From Nostoc sp. PCC 7524 (lineage in GTDB: Bacteria > Cyanobacteriota > Cyanobacteriia > Cyanobacteriales > Nostocaceae): a stretch of 64,000 nucleotides of DNA. The translations under genes were made by a program, and so were the position numbers. The notes below the pieces were generated by a model, which was given only the letters and a program-made list of their open reading frames with translations, was not told the DNA's origin and did no database searches. The stretch lies in contig NC_019684.1 of the NCBI RefSeq assembly GCF_000316645.1, forward strand, positions 2,068,501 to 2,132,500. Reading direction: 5' to 3'. Every line of letters begins with the position of its first letter. Position 1 is the first letter of the stretch. This document shows positions 41,553 to 50,843 of the stretch, in pieces.

Positions 41553-42109
41553 ATTAAATTAATATTTAAGCAATAATTGAGCAAATTTTCTAACTTATAA
41601 CCCGAAATTAGTAATATTTGGAACTTAAACGTATATTAAATGATTGCTCTCTTGATTATTAATGTTAATTAACAAATATCTATATTTATCAAACTTTAGA
41701 AATAGATTTACTATGAAAATCTGCATATTTAAATTTATATTTTTATACAAAAAATAATACTAATCATAATTGTACAAAAAACATGATGGCGATCGCTATT
41801 CACAAGTTATGGCGATATTTAGCCAAAAACATCAATATCAATCATTTTTCCCCGGATTAGGCGCGAGTTACTACCTTCCTCACAAGTTCCTCAAATTGTT
41901 GTCTTATAAACAATAGTGTGGGGTGAATGAGTGCTGAGTAATGTTAACGGTAGGGCGGCGTTTAGCCGGTGCTGTTAGCTTTGTTCGGGGCGTGAGCAGC
42001 GTACTGATTCACAGATTCTAGTCTCTAGACTCTTTATTTCACTAAGACTAACTACTAAAAGAACTTAATTTAAGACCAAAAACCTCAATGAATAATGATA
42101 GAGGTCTAT
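41553..42109. other. Intergenic region, divergent promoters
   Basis: 557 bases, AT-rich in the left part, carrying one HIP1-like GGCGATCGC at about 41788. No gene, array or terminator was recognised. It must hold promoters for the hybrid-kinase operon (minus) and the stress-protein gene (plus). Confidence 0.4.
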
Positions 42110-42640
42110 ATGCTGAAAAAAATTTTAGTTGCATTGGATCGCTCGGAAACAGGACAACAAGTTTTTGAACAAGCATTAACTTTAGCCAAGGCAACACAAG
42201 CCAGTTTAATGTTGTTACACGTTTTGTCACCAGAAGAAGACGGTAGTCCTAACATCCCTATGGTATCCACTTATGACTACTATCCGGGATTAAGTGGTCA
42301 AAGCTTTGAAGTATATCAAAAACAATGGGATCGCTTTAAAGATGAAGGATTGAAGATGTTGCAATCCTTGAGTGCTAAAGCTAACACCGTAGAGGTATCT
42401 ACGGAATTTCAACAAATTCTAGGTAGTCCTGGACGCACAATTTGTAAATTAGCGACTACGTGGAACGCTGATTTAATCGTCATGGGACACAGGGGTTTAG
42501 CTGGGTTTAAAGAACTATTCCTGGGTAGTGTAAGTAACTACGTCCTTCACCATGCGCCCTGTTCAGTTCACATAGTCCATTGTCCAGATACAGCGAAAGC
42601 AACGGATACGCAAAAACGTGTAGAGGGTGTGGGGGTGTAG
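42110..42640 (+). CDS. Universal stress protein (UspA family)
   Basis: Start taken at ATG 42110 (MLKKILVALDRSETGQQVF), because GAGGT lies 4 bases upstream and family members begin with this strand. The ATG at 42095 would add five residues. The 176-residue protein shares its layout with the one at 21318: a long Pro/Tyr insert after the first strand and the ATP motif GHRGLAGFKELFLGSVSN. It is a soluble ATP-binding stress protein. The repeat module and the hox operon follow in the same direction, and read-through into hoxE is possible but no evidence shows it. Confidence 0.92.
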   Translation: MLKKILVALDRSETGQQVFEQALTLAKATQASLMLLHVLSPEEDGSPNIPMVSTYDYYPGLSGQSFEVYQKQWDRFKDEGLKMLQSLSAKANTVEVSTEFQQILGSPGRTICKLATTWNADLIVMGHRGLAGFKELFLGSVSNYVLHHAPCSVHIVHCPDTAKATDTQKRVEGVGV

Positions 42641-42820
42641 GGGAATAGGGGAGCAGGGGAGCAGGGGAGCAGAGGGGATGAGGGGGATGTAGCGTCAGCT
42701 TCTCTTACGATGGCGTAAGCCTACCCGCAGGGTGGGAGACAAGGGAGAGTCTTCCCAATCCCCAGTCCCCAATCCCCAGTCCCCAGTCCCCAGTCCCCAA
42801 TCCCCAATCCCTCATTCCTG
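42636..42820. repeat. Composite repeat module with embedded palindrome, upstream of hoxE
   Basis: G-rich units from the stop codon of the stress protein to about 42690. Then the 58-base palindromic element (42678-42735) that matches 13799-13853 in reverse. Then CCCCAGT/CCCCAAT heptamers (about 42756-42812) ending about 35 bases before the hoxE start. The hox promoter is expected here or just upstream. Confidence 0.88.
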
Positions 42821-42846
42821 TAATTTTGAATTCGGAGTGTAGCGAC

Positions 42847-43359
42847 GTGACAGCAACTTCACCACCACATCATGCTCATCCCAGTGGGGATAAACGCTTG
42901 AAGATGCTAGATGCAACTATCAAGCGTCATCAATATCAACAAGATGCACTGATTGAAATTCTCCATAAAGCTCAAGAACTGTTTGGCTACCTGGAAAATG
43001 ATTTACTGCTGTATATCGCCCATAACCTGAAACTGCCACCTAGTCGGGTTTATGGGGTGGCAACTTTCTATCATTTGTTTTCTTTAGCACCACAAGGTAC
43101 TCATAGTTGTGTGGTGTGTACAGGTACAGCTTGTTACGTAAAAGGCGCACCAGCAATTTTGGCAAATTTGGAAAAATCTACGCAAATTCACGCTGGTGAA
43201 ACTACTGCTGACGGTCAATTATCACTACTCACAGCTCGTTGTTTAGGTGCTTGTGGAATTGCCCCGGCGGTGGTGTTTGATGGCACAGTGTTAGGCCATC
43301 AAACCCCGGAATCTGTTTGCGATCGCGTGGAAGGATGGCTCAAACATGGAACTGACTGA
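42847..43359 (+). CDS. hoxE: Bidirectional hydrogenase diaphorase subunit HoxE
   Basis: Start set at GTG 42847 (MTATSPPHH), with GGAG 9 bases upstream; a TTG at 42826 is the longer alternative. The 170-residue NuoE-like protein has the thioredoxin-fold [2Fe-2S] ligands as CTGTAC (two Cys) and CLGAC (two Cys). It links the HoxFU diaphorase to further electron partners in the cyanobacterial pentameric hydrogenase HoxEFUYH. Its last 14 bases overlap hoxF, so the two are translated together. Confidence 0.95.
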
Positions 43360-44947
43360 ACTATTAGAAATCGCTCGCCAAGAACGTTCCCAAACTAAAC
43401 CAATCCAAATTCGTTGTTGTACGGCGGCTGGGTGTCTTTCTGCTAACTCGCAAGCGGTTAAGGAAAAATTAGAAGAGTCCGCCAAAGCAGAGGGTTTGGA
43501 GAAAGAAGTACAAGTCTCTGGCGTGGGCTGTATGCGCTTGTGCTGTCAGGGGCCTTTAGTGGAAGTTGAGAAAATGGGGACTGAGAAAGATACCCTGTAT
43601 GAAAAAGTTACTCCTGAAGATGCACCTGCAATTATTGACACGCTCAAAGGACAAGAGTCAACGCTGTCGGTAGTGAACTTAGACCAACCATTTTTTACAT
43701 CCCAAAAGCCGATTGTATTAGAAAACAGTGGTAAAGTTGACCCCGATCGCATTCAATCTTACATTGCCACTGGTGGTTATCAAGCTCTATACCATGTTCT
43801 CAGGGAGATGACATCGGCGGAAGTTGTAGACACAATTAGCCGCAGTGGTTTACGGGGACGTGGTGGTGCTGGTTATCCCACGGGTTTGAAATGGGCAACG
43901 GTAGCTAAAGCTCAGGGAGAGCGCAAATTTGTTATCTGTAACGCCGATGAAGGTGATCCCGGCGCATTCATGGATCGGAGTGTGTTGGAAAGTGATCCCC
44001 ATCGGGTGTTAGAGGGAATGGCGATCGCAGCCTATGCTGTGGGTGCAAGTCAAGGTTATATCTATGTCCGAGCAGAATATCCCACCGCCATTAAACGCTT
44101 ACAAACTGCCATTCATCAAGCCCAACGCCTCGGTATTTTAGGTAGTCAAATTTTCGAGTCTCCCTTTGATTTCAAAATCGATATCCGCATTGGTGCAGGA
44201 GCTTATGTTTGCGGTGAAGAAACGGCTTTAATGGCTTCTATCGAAGGTAAACGCGGCTTACCTAGTCCCCGTCCCCCCTATCCGGCGGAATCTGGTTTAT
44301 GGGGACATCCCACCTTAATTAACAATGTGGAAACCTTTGCTAATATTGCACCCATTATCCGTAAAAGTGCGGACTGGTTCGCTAGTATCGGTACTGCCAA
44401 AAGCAAAGGGACAAAAGTATTTGCGCTAGCAGGCAAAATCCGCAACACAGGTTTAATAGAGGTGCCAATGGGTACTTCCTTAAGGCAAATAGTAGAAGAA
44501 ATGGGTGGCGGTATTCCCGATGATGGTATTGCTAAAGCAGTACAAACAGGTGGCCCCTCTGGGGGATGTATTCCCGCCTCCGCCTTTGATACTCCTGTAG
44601 ACTATGAATCCTTAACCAGCCTGGGTTCGATGATGGGTTCTGGTGGGATGATCGTTATGGATCAAACTACCAACATGGTAGATGTTGCCCGCTTCTTCAT
44701 GGAATTTTGCATGGATGAATCCTGCGGTAAGTGCATTCCGTGCCGGGTAGGAACTGTGCAGTTACATGGATTATTAACCAAAATTAGCGAAGGTAAAGCA
44801 TCACACGCGGATTTACAACTCCTAGAAGAACTATGCGACATGGTGAAGCACACCAGCTTATGCGGTTTAGGCCAGTCTGCGCCCAATCCTGTCTTTAGTA
44901 CCCTGCGGTACTTTCATGATGAGTATTTGGCTTTAGTTAAGGAGTAG
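43346..44947 (+). CDS. hoxF: Bidirectional hydrogenase diaphorase subunit HoxF
   Basis: 533 residues, NuoF-like. The N-terminal part has a thioredoxin-like [2Fe-2S]-type Cys set ([14 protein letters not shown]). Then the NADH and FMN region ([41 protein letters not shown]), and a C-terminal [4Fe-4S] motif CGKCIPC with a further Cys in TSLCGLGQ. It binds NAD(P)H and FMN and passes electrons to HoxU. Overlaps hoxE by 14 bases. A G-rich repeat begins right at its stop codon. Confidence 0.97.
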
Positions 44948-45086: not shown

Positions 45087-45803
45087 ATGACCGTAAAAAC
45101 ACTAACAATCGATGGTCAGATGGTCAGCGCCCGTGAGGAAGAAACGGTATTACAGGCGGCGCAAGCAGCTGGGATTCATATTCCTACACTGTGCCATTTA
45201 GAAGGTGTGGGAGATGTGGGTGCTTGTCGGCTGTGCTTGGTAGAAATTGCTGGCATGAATAAATTACTTCCGGCTTGCGTGACCAAAGTTACCGAAGGGA
45301 TGGAAGTGACTACTAAGAGCGATCGCCTGCAAAATTACCGCCGCACCATCGTAGAAATGTTGTTTGCCGAAGGAAATCACATCTGCTCGGTGTGTGTTGC
45401 TAACGGTAACTGTGAACTGCAAGACTTAGCCATTGAAATGGGTATGGATCACGTACGTTTAGCCTACCATTTCCCCGATCGCAAAGTTGATTTATCTCAC
45501 GATCGCTACGGCGTAGACCATAACCGTTGTGTTCTTTGTACGCGTTGCATCCGTGTATGTGACGAAATTGAAGGCGCACATACCTGGGATATGGCAGGGA
45601 GGGGAACAAAATCCCACGTCATCACCGACTTAAGCCAACCTTGGGGAACCTCCCAAACTTGTACCTCCTGCGGCAAATGCGTCAGTGCTTGCCCCACAGG
45701 TGCATTATTTTACCAAGGTTCCAGCGTCGGCGAAATGAAACGCGATCGCGCCAAACTTGATTTTTTAGTTACCGCACGGGAAAAACAGCAATGGAATCTT
45801 TAG
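45087..45803 (+). CDS. hoxU: Bidirectional hydrogenase diaphorase subunit HoxU
   Basis: 238 residues, similar to the N-terminal part of NuoG. It has a ferredoxin-type [2Fe-2S] site (CHLEGVGDVGACRLC plus a later Cys in ACVTK). The middle part has Cys residues in HICSVCVANGNC. Two [4Fe-4S] ferredoxin motifs follow (CVLCTRCIRVC and CTSCGKCVSACP). It carries electrons between HoxF and the hydrogenase HoxYH. The start ATG has no Shine-Dalgarno sequence, which is usual in this operon. G-rich heptamers begin at the stop codon. Confidence 0.97.
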   Translation: MTVKTLTIDGQMVSAREEETVLQAAQAAGIHIPTLCHLEGVGDVGACRLCLVEIAGMNKLLPACVTKVTEGMEVTTKSDRLQNYRRTIVEMLFAEGNHICSVCVANGNCELQDLAIEMGMDHVRLAYHFPDRKVDLSHDRYGVDHNRCVLCTRCIRVCDEIEGAHTWDMAGRGTKSHVITDLSQPWGTSQTCTSCGKCVSACPTGALFYQGSSVGEMKRDRAKLDFLVTAREKQQWNL

Positions 45804-45905
45804 GGACTGGGGATTGGGGACTGGGGACTGGGGATTGGGGACTGGAAAGCACTTCTCCCTCATCTCCCCCTACTCCCTCATCTCCCCCCACTCCCCCATC
45901 CTCAC
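45804..45905. repeat. Composite repeat module between hoxU and the DUF3122 gene
   Basis: GGGGATT/GGGGACT heptamers directly after the hoxU stop (to about 45845), then C-rich CTCATCTCCCCC units (about 45853-45905). The C-rich arm ends 8 bases before the AGGAGG of the next gene. Confidence 0.9.
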
Positions 45906-45926
45906 CCACACCAGGAGGTGAATTTG

Positions 45927-46520
45927 ATGACGAAAATCAGACGAAAACCGAAACAGTACAACAGGAACAGCAAAATTCCGCACCTGTTTTCTATGTGTCT
46001 GTCTCCGACTTCTTTAAAAAGTCTATTTTGGTGGCTACTCTTGTTGGGGATTCTGACGATTTTTATGTTCCTGGGTTTAGGAAGTCTCTATACAGAAACA
46101 GTCATTGCAGCTGTCGAGCCACAAGAAACAGCCACAGCAGAACTTCTTTATCGCTCACAGACAAGATTAGATGATCAATCAGGAAAGGTTTGGCAAGTTG
46201 TCCTGTTTAAGCAAGTGTATCCCGGTGAAGGAGAAACTTTAAATCTGCGGTTGGTAGGGTTTCCCGGTTCCGCCGAACTCATCCATCCCCAACCCTTAAA
46301 AATTACCACCGCGACAGGCAAAGTCTTCTCTGCTGCTGATGTGTTCTTAAATGAAGCACCAGCACCAACCATCGGGCAGTATGACTTAAAAGCTATCTTG
46401 CCAACTTTACCAACAGAACCTCTAGTCTTGAGCATACCCCAACCCGGCGATCGCTCCATCAATATCTCTGTACCCCTGCGTGTTGTCCAAGAATGGCAAA
46501 GTCTGGGGAGTAGGGAGTAG
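45927..46520 (+). CDS. DUF3122 family protein in the hox operon
   Basis: Start at ATG 45927, with AGGAGG at 45913-45918 eight bases upstream; a GTG at 45918 overlaps that ribosome site and is less likely. 197 residues: an N-terminal membrane anchor or signal (FWWLLLLGILTIFMFLGLGS) and an exported beta-rich domain (GKVWQVVLFKQVYPGEGETL, LRLVGFPGSAEL). This matches what I recall as DUF3122, a cyanobacterial family of unknown role. Its last residues SLGSRE are encoded by the start of the following G-rich repeat. It lies between hoxU and hoxY, which suggests a periplasmic or lumenal role linked to the hydrogenase, not shown here. Confidence 0.82.
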   Translation: MTKIRRKPKQYNRNSKIPHLFSMCLSPTSLKSLFWWLLLLGILTIFMFLGLGSLYTETVIAAVEPQETATAELLYRSQTRLDDQSGKVWQVVLFKQVYPGEGETLNLRLVGFPGSAELIHPQPLKITTATGKVFSAADVFLNEAPAPTIGQYDLKAILPTLPTEPLVLSIPQPGDRSINISVPLRVVQEWQSLGSRE

Positions 46521-46665: not shown

Positions 46666-47211
46666 ATGTCTCGCTTGAAATTAGCAACAGTATGGTTAGG
46701 TGGCTGTTCTGGCTGTCATATGTCCTTTCTAGATTTGGACGAATGGCTGATTGATTTAGCCGCACAGACAGATGTAGTTTTTAGTCCCTTTGCTGATATT
46801 AAAAAATATCCAGAGGGTGTAGACGTGGTATTGGTAGAAGGTGCGATCGCTAATGAAGAACACTTGCAAACCATCCAGATTGTCAGGGAGCGTTCTAAAA
46901 TCTTAATTTCCTTTGGTGACTGTGCTGTAACTGGTAATGTGACAGCTTTACGCAATCCTGTAGGTAATGCGGAAACAGTCCTACAACGTTCTTACATCCA
47001 AACAGCTGATCTTTATCCTCAGATTCCCCAAGAACCAGGTATTGTCCCCCCATTACTAGATCGGGTAACACCTGTACATACTGTAGTACCAGTTGACATT
47101 TATTTACCCGGCTGTCCCCCCTCAGCCACACGCATCCGCGCCGTTTTAGAGCCATTATTACGAGGAGAAAAACCACACTTAGAAGGACGTGAATTTATCA
47201 AGTTTGGGTAA
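46666..47211 (+). CDS. hoxY: [NiFe] hydrogenase small subunit HoxY
   Basis: 181 residues. Near the start it has VWLGGCSGCHMSFLDLDEW, with the Cys pair that binds the proximal [4Fe-4S] cluster. The further ligands are in SFGDCAVTGN and YLPGCPPSA. It is the short form typical of NAD-linked hydrogenases, with a single iron-sulfur cluster. It passes electrons from HoxU to the NiFe site in HoxH. A G-rich array follows right after the stop codon. Confidence 0.97.
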   Translation: MSRLKLATVWLGGCSGCHMSFLDLDEWLIDLAAQTDVVFSPFADIKKYPEGVDVVLVEGAIANEEHLQTIQIVRERSKILISFGDCAVTGNVTALRNPVGNAETVLQRSYIQTADLYPQIPQEPGIVPPLLDRVTPVHTVVPVDIYLPGCPPSATRIRAVLEPLLRGEKPHLEGREFIKFG

Positions 47212-47255
47212 GGGGGGACTGGGGACTGGGGATTGGGGACTGGGGATTGGGGAGG
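47212..47255. repeat. G-rich heptamer arm after hoxY
   Basis: GGGGACT/GGGGATT units start at the hoxY stop. The matching C-rich arm is at about 47622-47662, on the far side of the 21-base tandem array, just before the CBS-CP12 gene. Confidence 0.85.
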
Positions 47256-47280
47256 GAGAGAAGAAGAGAATTAAAAACTA

Positions 47281-47611
47281 AAATTTTCTGTTCTGAAGCC
47301 AAAGTTTCTCGTTCTGAGCCTGAAGTTTCCTGTTCTGAGCCTGAAGTTTCCTGTTCTGAACTCGAAGTTTCTGGTTCTGAACTCGAAGTTTCCTGTTCTG
47401 AACTCGAAGTTTCTCGTTTTGAGCCTGAAGTTTCTCGTTCTGAACTCAAAGTTTCTCGTTCTGAGCCTAAAGTTTCTCGTTCTGAACTCAAAGTTTCTCG
47501 TTCTGAACCTGAAGTTTCCTGTTCTGAACTCAAAGTTTCCTGTTCTGATCTCAAAGTTTCTCGTTCTGAACTCAAAGTTTCCTGTTCTGATCTCAAAGTT
47601 TCCCTACCTTC
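47281..47611. repeat. 21-bp tandem repeat array, about 15 units
   Basis: The block AAAGTTTCTCGTTCTGAACTC and close variants recurs with an exact 21-base period: the first well-formed AAAG(TTTC) starts at 47301 and the fifteenth at 47595. A weaker unit precedes it from 47281. Because 21 is a multiple of three, frames through it stay open on both strands (plus strand heptads such as EVSCSEL), but no start site or conserved product supports translation. It lies between hoxY and the CBS-CP12 gene. Confidence 0.92.
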
Positions 47612-47704: not shown

Positions 47705-48319
47705 ATGTTAACAGCAGCAGACGTGATGACAAAAGATGTGGCGACTATTCGCAGTTCCGCCACTGTAGCCGAAGCAGTAAATTTGATGCGTGCTAGAGAC
47801 TGGCGAGCCTTAATTGTAGATCGTCGCCATGAACAAGACGCTTACGGCATTATTAGCGAGAGCGACATTGTATATAAAGTTATTGCTTATGGTAAAGACC
47901 CTGGTAAAGTCAGAGTCTACGAAATCATGACCAAGCCTTGCATCTCAGTCAATCCCAACCTAGGTATAGAATACGTAGCTCGATTATTTGCTGACTATAA
48001 TTTACACAGAGCGCCTGTAATCCAAGGGGAGTTATTGGGTATCATTTCCCTCACAGACATTTTGGCTCAAAGCAAATTCCTAGAACTACCTCGAACAGTT
48101 GTATTAGAGCAAGAATTACAAGACGAAATTCAAAAAGCCCGTGCTATTTGCGCCCAAAAAGGTGTTCGTTCCGAAGAATGCGCCGCCGCTTGGGATGTTG
48201 TCGAAGAACTGCAATCAGAAATCGCCCACCAAAGAGCCGAGAGAATTAGCAAAACCGCCTTTGATGAATATTGCGACGAATACCCCGAAGCACTAGAAGC
48301 AAGACTTTATGAGTGCTGA
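47705..48319 (+). CDS. CBS-CP12 fusion protein in the hydrogenase operon
   Basis: 204 residues. Two CBS domains (about 1-62 and 70-128: VMTKDVATIRSSATVAEAV, IMTKPCISVNPNLGIEYV) that should bind adenine nucleotides. A CP12-type tail follows at about 135-204: an N-terminal Cys pair (Cys149, Cys159 in ARAICAQKGVRSEEC) and the hallmark AWDVVEELQSEIAHQRAE. The C-terminal part is YCDEYPEALEARLYEC. CP12 links GAPDH and phosphoribulokinase to redox state in the Calvin cycle. The usual second C-terminal Cys is Ala199 here, and a Cys is instead the last residue (Cys204). CBS-CP12 fusions are known in cyanobacteria from the literature. Placement inside hox suggests nucleotide- and redox-dependent control of the hydrogenase. 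Confidence 0.88.
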   Translation: MLTAADVMTKDVATIRSSATVAEAVNLMRARDWRALIVDRRHEQDAYGIISESDIVYKVIAYGKDPGKVRVYEIMTKPCISVNPNLGIEYVARLFADYNLHRAPVIQGELLGIISLTDILAQSKFLELPRTVVLEQELQDEIQKARAICAQKGVRSEECAAAWDVVEELQSEIAHQRAERISKTAFDEYCDEYPEALEARLYEC

Positions 48320-48321
48320 GT

Positions 48322-48415
48322 CCATAGTCCATAGTCCATAGTTATTCTCCCCATCTTCCCCATCTCCCCCTGCTCCCCTGCCCCCCCACTCCCCACTCCC
48401 CACTCCCCACTCCCC
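48322..48415. repeat. CCATAGT heptamers and C-rich array abutting the hoxH start
   Basis: Three CCATAGT units (48322-48343), then CCCCATCT and CCCCACT units up to base 48415. The hoxH ATG follows with no bases to spare, so there is no Shine-Dalgarno sequence. Confidence 0.9.
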
Positions 48416-49867
48416 ATGTCCACAAGAATTATCATCGCTCCCGTTACCCGCATTGAGGGACACGCCAAAATTAGTATCTACCTGGACGATACTGGACAAG
48501 TTAGCGATGCTCGGTTTCATGTCACCGAATTTCGAGGATTTGAAAAGTTTTGTGAAGGTCGTCCTCTGTGGGAAATGCCCGGAATTACGGCGCGTGTCTG
48601 TGGTATTTGTCCAGTGAGCCACTTGTTGGCTTCAGCGAAAGCAGGCGATCGCATCTTATCTGTTACCATACCAAAGGCCGCCTCTAAACTGCGTCGGCTG
48701 ATGAATTGGGGGCAAATTATTCAATCCCATGCTTTGAGTTTCTTTCACCTCACCGCCCCAGATTTATTGCTGGGAATGGATAGCGATCCCGAAAAACGTA
48801 ATGTTTTTGGCTTAATCGCTGCCGAACCAGAGTTAGCCCGTGGTGGTATTCGTTTGCGCCAATTTGGGCAAGAAATTATTGAATTATTGGGAGGTGCGAA
48901 AATTCACCCGGCTTGGGCTGTTCCTGGGGGAGTGAGAGAACCCCTCACACCAGAAGCACGTACCCACATTCAGCAACGGATTCCAGAAGCACGCGCCACT
49001 ATCATTAATGCTTTGGGTGTATTTAAGCAGTTACTCGCAGATTATCAAAGAGAAGTCCAAACCTTTGGTAATTTCCCTAGCTTGTTTATGGGTTTAGTTA
49101 CCCCTGATGGTTTATGGGAAACTTACGATGGCTATATTCGCTTTGTTGATAGTGGCGGTAATATTATTGCCGATAAACTTGATCCTACCCGCTATCAAGA
49201 GTTTATTGGGGAAGCAGTGCAACCGGATTCTTACTTAAAATCACCCTATTATCGCCCCTTGGGATATCCAGACAGTGACGGACGTTGCCGTTTAGATAGT
49301 GGGATGTATCGAGTCGGGCCGCTAGCACGTTTAAATGTTTGTAGTGCGATCGGTACACCTTTAGCTGATCAAGAATTACGGGAATTTCGTCAACTAGCTC
49401 AAGGTGCTGTAACATCATCATTCTTCTATCACTATGCCCGCTTAATTGAAATTCTCGCCTGTATTGAATCTGTGGAAATCTTATTAGATGACCCTGATTT
49501 ACTATCAAATCGATTGCGTGCAGAAGCAGGAGTGAATCAATTAGAAGGTGTTGGGGTGAGTGAAGCACCACGAGGTACATTATTCCATCATTATCAAGTT
49601 GATGAAAATGGCTTATTGCAAAAAGTCAATTTAGTGATTGCCACTGGTCAAAATAACCTAGCGATGAATCGCACCGTTGCCCAAATTGCCAGACATTTTA
49701 TTCAAGGGTCAGAAATTCCAGAAGGAATGCTCAATCGTGTTGAAGCTGGAATTCGTGCTTTTGACCCCTGTTTAAGTTGTTCAACTCATGCCGTCGGACA
49801 AATGCCATTGCAAATTCAATTAGTCGCCGCCGATGGCAGTGTTGTTGATCAAGTTTACCGACAATAA
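48416..49867 (+). CDS. hoxH: [NiFe] hydrogenase large subunit HoxH
   Basis: 483 residues, matching the family from residue 1 ([15 protein letters not shown]). The first NiFe-ligand pair is RVCGIC (Cys62, Cys65). The second is DPCLSCSTH (Cys452, Cys455, His458). The 25 residues after His458 (starting AVGQMPLQ) are the peptide removed by a HoxW-type protease once nickel is inserted. No hoxW or hyp genes are in the window. Translation starts directly at the end of a C-rich repeat. The convergent NACHT gene ends 1 base downstream. Confidence 0.98.
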
Positions 49868-49868
49868 A

Positions 49869-50843
49869 TTATGTCTCAGAATTGCTTCTGGATAATTCCC
49901 ACATTTGGAAGGCTTGGGTAAAGTCTAAGTCATCCAAAAAGTTACCATCTGTAGGGGATAAATGCTGGTACTGAATACATATGTATGCAAGATATAAGGG
50001 AATCCTAGCCAAATTCCTAGCTTTTTCATTGGTTGTTGTTTGTAGCAATCTCCAGAGATTATTACCTGCGATCGGGTCTAAATTTTGCGGAAAATTAAAC
50101 CACCGACAAATAAAATCCCGAATTTGGCGATCGTTAAAATTAGCTATTTCCCTTTCTTTAAAACTAGAAAATCTATTTCGATAAATGTGCCTATACTGAG
50201 TACGGCAGGATAAAATAAAGCGGTTTTGACCGTACCTATCGATAAAATCTTGAATGTGATTTATACCTTGCTGTCTATTATATTCATTGCTTTCTTGCCT
50301 CTCTGGAATCAAATCTATGCCATCAATTAATATAAGTAAATTTCCTTGTTCAAGTGCTGTTTGTGTGAACTCCCTAGGATATAAAAACTGGGCATCAATA
50401 AATTTTTTCTCAATCATATTGAAAATGTTGTTATCGGGCATTTTTAGTCTCTGTACATCAACAAACACCGGAATTACTCTGTGTCCAAAATTACCTTCTC
50501 TTCCTCTTAAACTTTCTAGTCCGACATATTTTAAATATGTGGACTTTCCAGTACCAGGTTGACCAAGGACAATGAGGTGTTTTGTATCACGTACAATTTC
50601 TATACTTGATTGCCGATTTTCGCTAGAATTTCCAGTTAAAAACTCCATCGGCACATAGACATTATTCAGAATGAATGGCTCCCACATTTCAAATATTTTG
50701 ATGAAAGAGTTAGCCTGTTCAAATTTACTTCGATATTGAGCAAGCAACATCAATACAATAATTATTCTAGGTGTACCATGGGCAAACAGTGTTCTTCCAC
50801 TACGTAACAAAACTTTCAAGATTTCAGCAATTAAGTCTTGCAT
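49869..50843 (-). CDS. Short NACHT-type NTPase, probably C-terminally reduced
   Basis: 324 residues. Walker A GQPGTGKSTYLKYV, Walker B NLLILIDGIDLIPE and sensor FILSCRTQ mark a NACHT NTPase. The region RIPLYLAYICIQYQ, ending in FQMWE, corresponds to the helix that in full NACHT proteins leads into a winged helix and a sensor repeat domain. Here the protein stops directly after it, so either the sensor part was lost or this is a compact form. The N-terminal about 70 residues are unlike known effectors. It ends 1 base from hoxH in convergent orientation. Confidence 0.82.
   Translation of the reverse strand: MQDLIAEILKVLLRSGRTLFAHGTPRIIIVLMLLAQYRSKFEQANSFIKIFEMWEPFILNNVYVPMEFLTGNSSENRQSSIEIVRDTKHLIVLGQPGTGKSTYLKYVGLESLRGREGNFGHRVIPVFVDVQRLKMPDNNIFNMIEKKFIDAQFLYPREFTQTALEQGNLLILIDGIDLIPERQESNEYNRQQGINHIQDFIDRYGQNRFILSCRTQYRHIYRNRFSSFKEREIANFNDRQIRDFICRWFNFPQNLDPIAGNNLWRLLQTTTNEKARNLARIPLYLAYICIQYQHLSPTDGNFLDDLDFTQAFQMWELSRSNSET

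Follow-up and report, generated by a model that had tools for sequence, protein, structure and literature searches.

CBS-CP12 proteins join a pair of CBS domains to a CP12 domain. One of them, CBS-CP12 of Microcystis aeruginosa, is reported to be a hexamer that binds AMP and restrains phosphoribulokinase (PRK), and to form no complex of the type glyceraldehyde-3-phosphate dehydrogenase (GAPDH)-CP12-PRK (PMC9406205, PMC9514657). CBS-CP12 fusions and a class without the C-terminal cysteine pair are already known; the fusions were reportedly modelled as unable to bind GAPDH, and CP12-N-CBS is one class of the eight-class CP12 scheme of Stanley et al. 2013 (described in PMC3906501). In Anabaena/Nostoc sp. 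PCC 7120, alr0765 is listed with the bidirectional hydrogenase as the entry that follows hoxY (alr0764), and it falls into the expression cluster of hox (PMC4915528); it is called a hypothetical protein there, and from its position we take it as a putative ortholog of the gene studied here. The function of the cyanobacterial bidirectional hydrogenase itself has been called unclear (PMC4517062). Here we describe a CBS-CP12 gene that lies between hoxY and hoxH in a 64,000-nucleotide stretch of Nostoc sp. PCC 7524 (NC_019684.1, positions 2,068,501 to 2,132,500; the whole stretch is hereafter called the window). We presume, with a probability of roughly 45%, that its product would be an adenylate-sensing, thiol-switchable brake on the Calvin cycle, acting on PRK and made together with the fermentative hydrogenase, and not a part of that hydrogenase.

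The CBS-CP12 gene of the hox operon

A preliminary description of the window had placed a CBS-CBS-CP12 protein between hoxY and hoxH. Open reading frame (ORF) and Pfam analysis confirmed this gene and the residues given for it, namely Cys149, Cys159, AWDVVEEL, Cys190, Ala199 and, at the end of the terminal EARLYEC, Cys204. Its features are as follows:

47705..48319, + strand: CBS-CP12 fusion protein, 204 aa, ATG start, CP12 with the N-terminal cysteine pair only
47705..47884, + strand: first CBS domain, about residues 1-60 (Pfam; YGIISESDI, nucleotide-type motif, at 47-55)
47915..48067, + strand: second CBS domain, residues 71-121 (best Pfam stretch; LGIISLTDI)
48104..48313, + strand: CP12 domain, residues 134-203 (Pfam PF02672, 94.8 bits)
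48149..48181, + strand: N-terminal CP12 cysteine pair, Cys149 to Cys159 (sequence, 167-row conservation)
48272..48274, + strand: Cys190, the one cysteine left of the C-terminal CP12 pair, the partner position 199 being Ala (48299-48301)
48311..48321, + strand: dispersed repeat word GAGTGCTGAGT, encoding Glu203-Cys204 and the TGA stop (DNA alignment, word counts)

Pfam recognised CBS in two stretches (91.3 bits), the closest PDB sequence match was 5nmu, and the protein has the fold of the solved CBS-CP12. The adenine-nucleotide-type CBS motif is G-h-h-S/T-x-S/T-D, and two copies, GIISESD and GIISLTD, are read in the window protein. Conservation was measured in a similarity sample of 167 rows (201 profile matches, of which 191 spanned CBS and CP12, with identical proteins and fragments <170 aa merged or dropped); four further genes treated below stand outside it, the hox-interval genes L176 (CP12 lost) and L233 (broken frame) and the unlinked WCSG-ending CBS-CP12 of G130 and G198 (G, L and f numbers are our handles for genomes, loci and families). 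G48 and D54 of the first motif were present in 167/167 rows and S/T51 in 166/167, and G112, S/T115 and D118 of the second in all 167. The N-terminal cysteine pair of CP12 marks the half that serves PRK. Both Cys149 and Cys159 were found in 161 of the 167 rows, both were replaced in five, one row had a gap and a single replacement never occurred, so the pair is kept or lost jointly, as a working disulfide would predict. Canonical CP12, the linker of GAPDH and PRK, has both cysteine pairs, of which the window protein, with Ala199, lacks the second.

The genome of the window also contains two stand-alone CP12 genes and a second CBS-CP12 (L131, C2:1354661-1355245), which is 49% identical to the window protein and whose CP12 part has no N-terminal cysteine pair.

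The genes around CBS-CP12 lie on a single strand in the order universal stress protein (USP), hoxE, hoxF, hoxU, DUF3122, hoxY, CBS-CP12, hoxH:

42095..42640, + strand: USP gene (Pfam Usp)
42826..43359, + strand: hoxE (NCBIfam NF005747, 288.3 bits, cut-off 224)
43346..44947, + strand: hoxF (Pfam Complex1_51K and NADH_4Fe-4S)
45087..45803, + strand: hoxU (NCBIfam NF005745, 432.3 bits, cut-off 333)
45918..46520, + strand: accessory gene for a DUF3122 protein, downstream of hoxU and upstream of hoxY (Pfam PF11320, 159.9 bits)
46666..47211, + strand: hoxY (Pfam Oxidored_q6 and position)
48416..49867, + strand: hoxH (Pfam NiFeSe_Hases)

HoxE and hoxU pass the NCBIfam equivalog cut-offs, and hoxF, hoxY and hoxH take their names from Pfam domains and gene order. 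Between 46600 and 50000 of the window there was no site resembling an intrinsic terminator.

Gene order in related genomes

Among the best 80 of the 262 loci that encode relatives in the collection of named genomes, 40 had hoxY before and hoxH after CBS-CP12 on the same strand, one had hoxY followed by the contig end, and 39 had neither. When 148 genomes were drawn evenly from the order to which the window genome belongs, HoxH was found in 77 and a close CBS-CP12 (E 1e-75) in 70. We took up to 8 kb on each side of hoxH from the 76 other genomes with HoxH and searched these stretches with profiles, and with the window counted a CBS(-CP12) gene stood in the hoxY-hoxH gap of 16/77 hoxH loci, while four more had one 3.6-3.9 kb downstream of hoxH. 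The 16 gap loci span eight family codes (f1, f7, f8, f20, f24, f25, f30 and f31). This 16/77 is a lower bound, because contig ends cut several loci short (e.g. L173, L207, L233) and six have no hoxY in the stretch taken (L177, L220, L223, L230, L235, L237). G187 (L337), where hoxY is followed by a reverse-transcriptase-like ORF, CBS-CP12 and the contig end, stands outside the 16, and L277, whose contig ends after the gene, was counted as hox-interval. In G040, G057 and G058 the hox copy is a paralogue, because a second CBS-CP12 lies away from hox there. The hox position of CBS-CP12 is therefore real and recurrent in many cyanobacteria, but not obligatory.

The Microcystis CBS-CP12 gene lies with a thioredoxin gene. 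In our sample a thioredoxin gene (WC[GAP]PC rule, within 1.5 kb) was near CBS-CP12 in 3/167 rows, none of them hox-linked, which is a weak test because many unlinked loci have only 1.5-4 kb of flank.

Some further observations were made at hox loci. In G174 (L182:1924-2301) and G190 (L199:15490-15867) hoxE is preceded, at a distance of about 1.1-1.4 kb, by a CP12-only ORF without the N-terminal cysteine pair, so CP12-type genes meet hox operons more than once, and in G136 a short CP12 ORF (L212:9977-10276) follows hoxH after about 550 bases. The reverse-transcriptase-like ORF of G187 (L337:11389-13116) is of group II intron type by eye, and in the same genome hoxF and hoxU are separated by a gene that, by eye, resembles that of a hybrid cluster protein.

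Loci that keep CBS-CP12 without hox genes

Thirty-eight genomes were searched for the 39 unlinked loci (L046 was left out), and HoxH was absent (E 1e-30) from 19 of the 38, some of which are drafts, so CBS-CP12 is not found only with hox genes, as an obligate Hox accessory would be. Nine Nostocales loci have kept CBS-CP12 and show no hox gene. In eight of them (L035, L036, L039, L041, L046, L052, L055 and L063) USP, DUF3122 and CBS-CP12 stand in a row, with no hox gene in the 12.8-20.6 kb stretches around them, where their hox-bearing kin have USP, hoxE, hoxF, hoxU, DUF3122, hoxY, CBS-CP12 and hoxH; the DUF3122 reading frame of L035 is short. The ninth, L061, has no USP but keeps DUF3122 and CBS-CP12, with the flanks seen in L051, a relative that bears hox. 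In the tree, L039 and L061 each branch from within hox-linked relatives (Shimodaira-Hasegawa-like approximate likelihood ratio test, SH-aLRT, 99 and 91) and they share flanking genes with these, and therefore we conclude that hox was lost in place there, whereas the other two hox-less groups reflect either hox loss or a later gain. Of eight genomes searched, those of L035, L036, L041 and L061 have no HoxH, and those of L039, L052, L055 and L063 have HoxH elsewhere in the genome, with no CBS-CP12 within 1.5 kb on either side of hoxH.

The ratio of nonsynonymous to synonymous substitution rates (dN/dS) was 0.055-0.138 among the copies of hox-less loci (9 pairs, 7 loci). L061 compared with three hox-linked sibs gave 0.076-0.098, and hox-linked copies compared with each other (20 pairs) gave 0.050-0.220. 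Strong purifying selection and retention in hox-less loci mean that CBS-CP12 has a job independent of this hydrogenase. The preliminary description had proposed a regulator of the hydrogenase encoded in its operon, and regarded orthologs found equally often away from hox genes as evidence against it. The operon position stood, with its recurrence in 40 of the best 80 loci and 16/77 hoxH loci; a dedicated hydrogenase regulator was not supported, since about half of the closest loci (39 of the best 80) are unlinked, half of the searched genomes with unlinked copies have no HoxH, and the hox-less copies are under selection.

The -WCSG ending and a possible direct control of the hydrogenase

Outside the Nostocales clade, all eight full-length hox-interval rows end in WCSG against 0/85 of the other rows, a zero that is valid for the similarity sample alone, because the unlinked WCSG proteins of G130 and G198 surfaced later by pattern. 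L176 has lost CP12 and still ends in YENWCSG, and L233, whose frame is broken, ends in EARMYDS; with these two counted, 9/10 hox-interval members outside the Nostocales clade carry the ending. A WCSG codon pattern, which overlooks some codon choices (e.g. L227), gave 34 matches over the 148 genomes and 5 for a reversed control. We read 33 of the 34 places (G126:C87 was left out; G161:C34 has TGG instead of a stop). Thirteen of the 33 end ORFs of at least 170 aa, and all 13 are CBS-pair proteins, nine with CP12 and four without. Eight are hox-linked, placed in the gap or, for G187, behind hoxY where the contig ends, and five lie away from hox, with no hox gene in 7.5-15 kb around them (the CBS-CP12 of G130 and G198 and the CBS-only proteins of G121, G189 and G053). 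HoxH was found in 12/13 genomes with a long WCSG-ending ORF vs 77/148 overall, a contrast that, like 8/8 vs 0/85, counts related genomes, three of them of one genus, and not independent events. A paired test of linkage and tail on the 167-row tree yielded only four independent pairs on starred branches (median p 1) and had no power. In the best tree the outside WCSG forms and the Nostocales hox-linked clade did not form one clade, and a one-clade constraint was not rejected (p = 0.265 in the approximately unbiased test, p-AU).

Within the Nostocales clade the tail is present in 9/48 hox-linked and 13/26 other rows, so WCSG does not track hox there, and 8 of the 12 searched Nostocales genomes with an unlinked WCSG protein have no HoxH. 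We name the proteins with this ending in the gap the hox-interval WCSG subclass; the window protein has their hoxY-hoxH position without their ending. CBS-pair proteins without CP12 that end in NWCSG are encoded away from hox at L294:2921-3445, L336:7254-7790 and L335:237-761, and those of L294 and L336 directly adjoin a CBS-CP12 gene.

These distributions bear on the possibility that the protein regulates the hydrogenase directly, binding HoxEFU or HoxYH and tuning electron flow by adenylate and thiol state, with the WCSG tail as a docking or redox contact in many lineages. The position of CBS(-CP12) in the gap across eight family codes is what such a regulator would lead one to expect, as are the eight WCSG ends outside Nostocales, the excess of HoxH among genomes with a long WCSG ORF, and a hox-gap protein of G139 that keeps the CBS pair and the WCSG end without CP12. 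Yet purifying selection acts on CBS-CP12 in loci and genomes without HoxH, 5/13 pattern-found WCSG proteins lie away from hox, the ending occurs in Nostocales genomes without HoxH, L233 is hox-linked and does not have it, 60/77 hoxH loci (some clipped or without hoxY in the stretch) have no such gene in the gap or after hoxY, and the window protein itself has no WCSG. We consider direct regulation doubtful.

A wider proposal is that many hox operons house an adenylate sensor of their own, made of CBS-pair proteins in which CP12 is optional and the conserved ending -(D/E)(N/D/E)WCSG would be a tag, separable from the rest, for docking to or redox contact with the hydrogenase or a partner in its assembly. 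Within the Nostocales, the branch with the window would then have inherited the position and given up the tail for the usual CP12 ending, while the protein stayed in use as a brake on the Calvin cycle. This is speculative, and we hold it to be rather improbable. If it were true, a single operon would set H2 metabolism and CO2 fixation together. The -WCSG ending offers a short motif for mutation.

Association with stress genes

The three-gene row also suits an explanation in which CBS-CP12 is a passenger, belonging to a general stress and energy set (USP, DUF3122, CBS-CP12) that uses the hox promoter solely to be co-expressed and has neither PRK nor the hydrogenase as target. Besides the eight hox-less loci that kept this row, other unlinked CBS-CP12 genes (L081, L096, L097, L108 and L294) have a more distant USP gene (39-50% identity) within 1 kb and in the same orientation, at L096 with DUF3122 upstream of CBS-CP12 as well, and CBS-CP12 stands away from hox in most genomes of the order. 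However, promoter sharing alone hardly accounts for a place strictly between hoxY and hoxH that recurs in eight family codes, and the N-terminal pair of CP12 is strongly conserved; we consider this explanation unlikely.

The terminal cysteine and the repeats

The preliminary description had noted a broken C-terminal pair with a displaced terminal cysteine and suggested a Cys190-Cys204 disulfide. Position 199 holds Cys in 9/167 rows and a gap in 20, so a missing second C-terminal cysteine is the common state in the sample and no oddity of the window protein. A cysteine as last residue was found in 0/80 nearest loci, in 1/167 rows (the window protein itself) and in 0/120 homologues among the matches listed (of 3127), which are one representative per 90% cluster and may thus conceal a sister strain that ends alike.

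DNA alignment showed the stop region to be ...TAT GAT CTT TAG GAG TGC TGA GT... in L032 and ...TAT GAG TGC TGA GT... in the window. The last two codons and the stop of the window gene lie in an 11-base word of intergenic DNA, GAGTGCTGAGT, of which the window holds 3 exact copies and 7 within one mismatch vs 0.90 expected; the longer GAGTGCTGAGTSMT has 26 copies elsewhere in the genome vs 0 for a reversed control. In one gap with a 7-bp array the repeat word ran into the CBS-CP12 stop. The simplest account of Cys204 is a side effect of a small deletion around the stop codon through which the repeat ran in; against L032, the run-in can be read as the deletion of 9 nt or as a replacement. A gap-sparing alignment of the two ends would need about five substitutions in six bases. 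The terminal cysteine may also be a sequencing error.

A Cys190-Cys204 bond that restores a two-disulfide CP12 is very improbable and was rejected: although both residues are present, 14 apart in number, and the -WCSG cysteine of 206-aa Nostoc relatives is also numbered 204, the last-residue cysteine is private to this genome in the sample and repeat-encoded, residues 201-204 have low confidence in the protein model (mean predicted local distance difference test, pLDDT, 51), and Cys190 is missing in 6/8 hox-interval WCSG rows outside Nostocales, so the WCSG cysteine is not its usual partner either.

The repeats of the operon are the following:

47276..47602, no strand: 15.6 tandem copies of a 21-bp unit, downstream of hoxY and upstream of the CBS-CP12 gene (repeat search)
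42754-42811, 45803-45845, 47214-47253, 48319-48342 and 48384-48416: 7-bp unit arrays, intergenic, hox operon

The 21-bp repeat (83% matches) fills most of the gap between hoxY and CBS-CP12 and opens spurious ORFs on both strands, and the units of the 7-bp arrays, which lie in several intergenic gaps, are for example GGGGACT, CCCCACT and AGTCCAT. Directly after hoxH and convergent with it lies a gene for a NACHT-type NTPase (49869-50843, - strand, Pfam PF05729); NACHT genes are often defence genes.

Discussion

Taken as a Calvin-cycle brake, the window protein would work as follows. The CBS pair would bind AMP or another adenylate at low energy, and the CP12 half, with the Cys149-Cys159 switch, would act on PRK and hold it inactive, with no GAPDH complex expected. 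Expression with the hox operon would supply the brake in the dark and under anoxia, when electrons from fermentation leave through the bidirectional hydrogenase, and CO2 fixation would then not draw on NAD(P)H and ATP. CBS-CP12 would be neither a structural nor a maturation part of the hydrogenase, and USP, DUF3122 and CBS-CP12 would form an accessory regulatory set that outlasts the loss of hoxEFUYH. We infer the same action as in Microcystis CBS-CP12, because the CBS motifs and the N-terminal half of CP12 are present in the window protein and the C-terminal pair is absent; a hexamer, AMP binding, PRK inhibition, co-transcription with hox and the physiological purpose are all predictions.

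Several points weigh against the brake. CBS-CP12 of Synechococcus 7002 failed to replace canonical CP12 in Synechocystis (PMC9406205, PMC9514657). In the expression data alr0765 and hoxY change alike in the low-calcium shift alone (+1.0 vs +0.7), and under high calcium the values are 0.0 vs -0.9 (PMC4915528). CBS-CP12 was not seen near hoxH or hoxY in 58/70 genomes of the order with a close copy, and Nodularia spumigena (Nostocales) is reported with hoxEFUYHW and no extra ORFs (PMC3610870). Finally, the AWD motif has diverged in the hox-interval relatives outside Nostocales (Asp164 in 2/8), and those relatives may therefore have another partner; direct hydrogenase control may apply above all to these WCSG forms with a drifted AWD core.

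The link between H2 metabolism and carbon fixation, offered as one possibility in the preliminary description, stays the best reading of the locus. The purpose of the hydrogenase and its tie to carbon metabolism in cyanobacteria are still debated, and an adenylate-sensor fold with a Calvin-cycle inhibitor, resident in the operon, would make this tie a concrete and testable molecular one. In the loci that have lost all five hox genes and kept the regulator, nature has separated the two functions.

Hackenberg et al. 2018 reportedly place CBS-CP12 genes in several neighbourhoods, some of them without relation to photosynthesis, and may mention hox among these. Our literature search, with Hackenberg 2018 and Stanley 2013 outside its range, found no discussion of CBS-CP12 in a hox operon, of the WCSG ending or of the retained three-gene set. 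CBS/CP12 and hydrogenase genes were joined only in one table row of an all-genome neighbourhood survey of 2025, cluster 41, near [NiFe]-hydrogenase large-subunit genes, with 58 CBS genes and CP12 in 24%, a row that is silent on order, cyanobacteria, tail and function (PMC12727194, Table 1).

Compared with Microcystis CBS-CP12 (PDB 5nmu, 5npl, 5nvd; Hackenberg et al. 2018), which by alignment has Cys at the position of Ala199, the window gene differs in lying in a hox operon. Like the CP12-N-CBS class, the window protein has an N-terminal CBS part, the N-terminal cysteine pair and the AWD_VEE core, and no C-terminal pair, and to this plan it adds a private last cysteine; the class description gives no operon context (PMC3906501). 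The window protein alone is therefore an ordinary member of CP12-N-CBS, and what sets the case apart is the operon-resident lineage to which it belongs.
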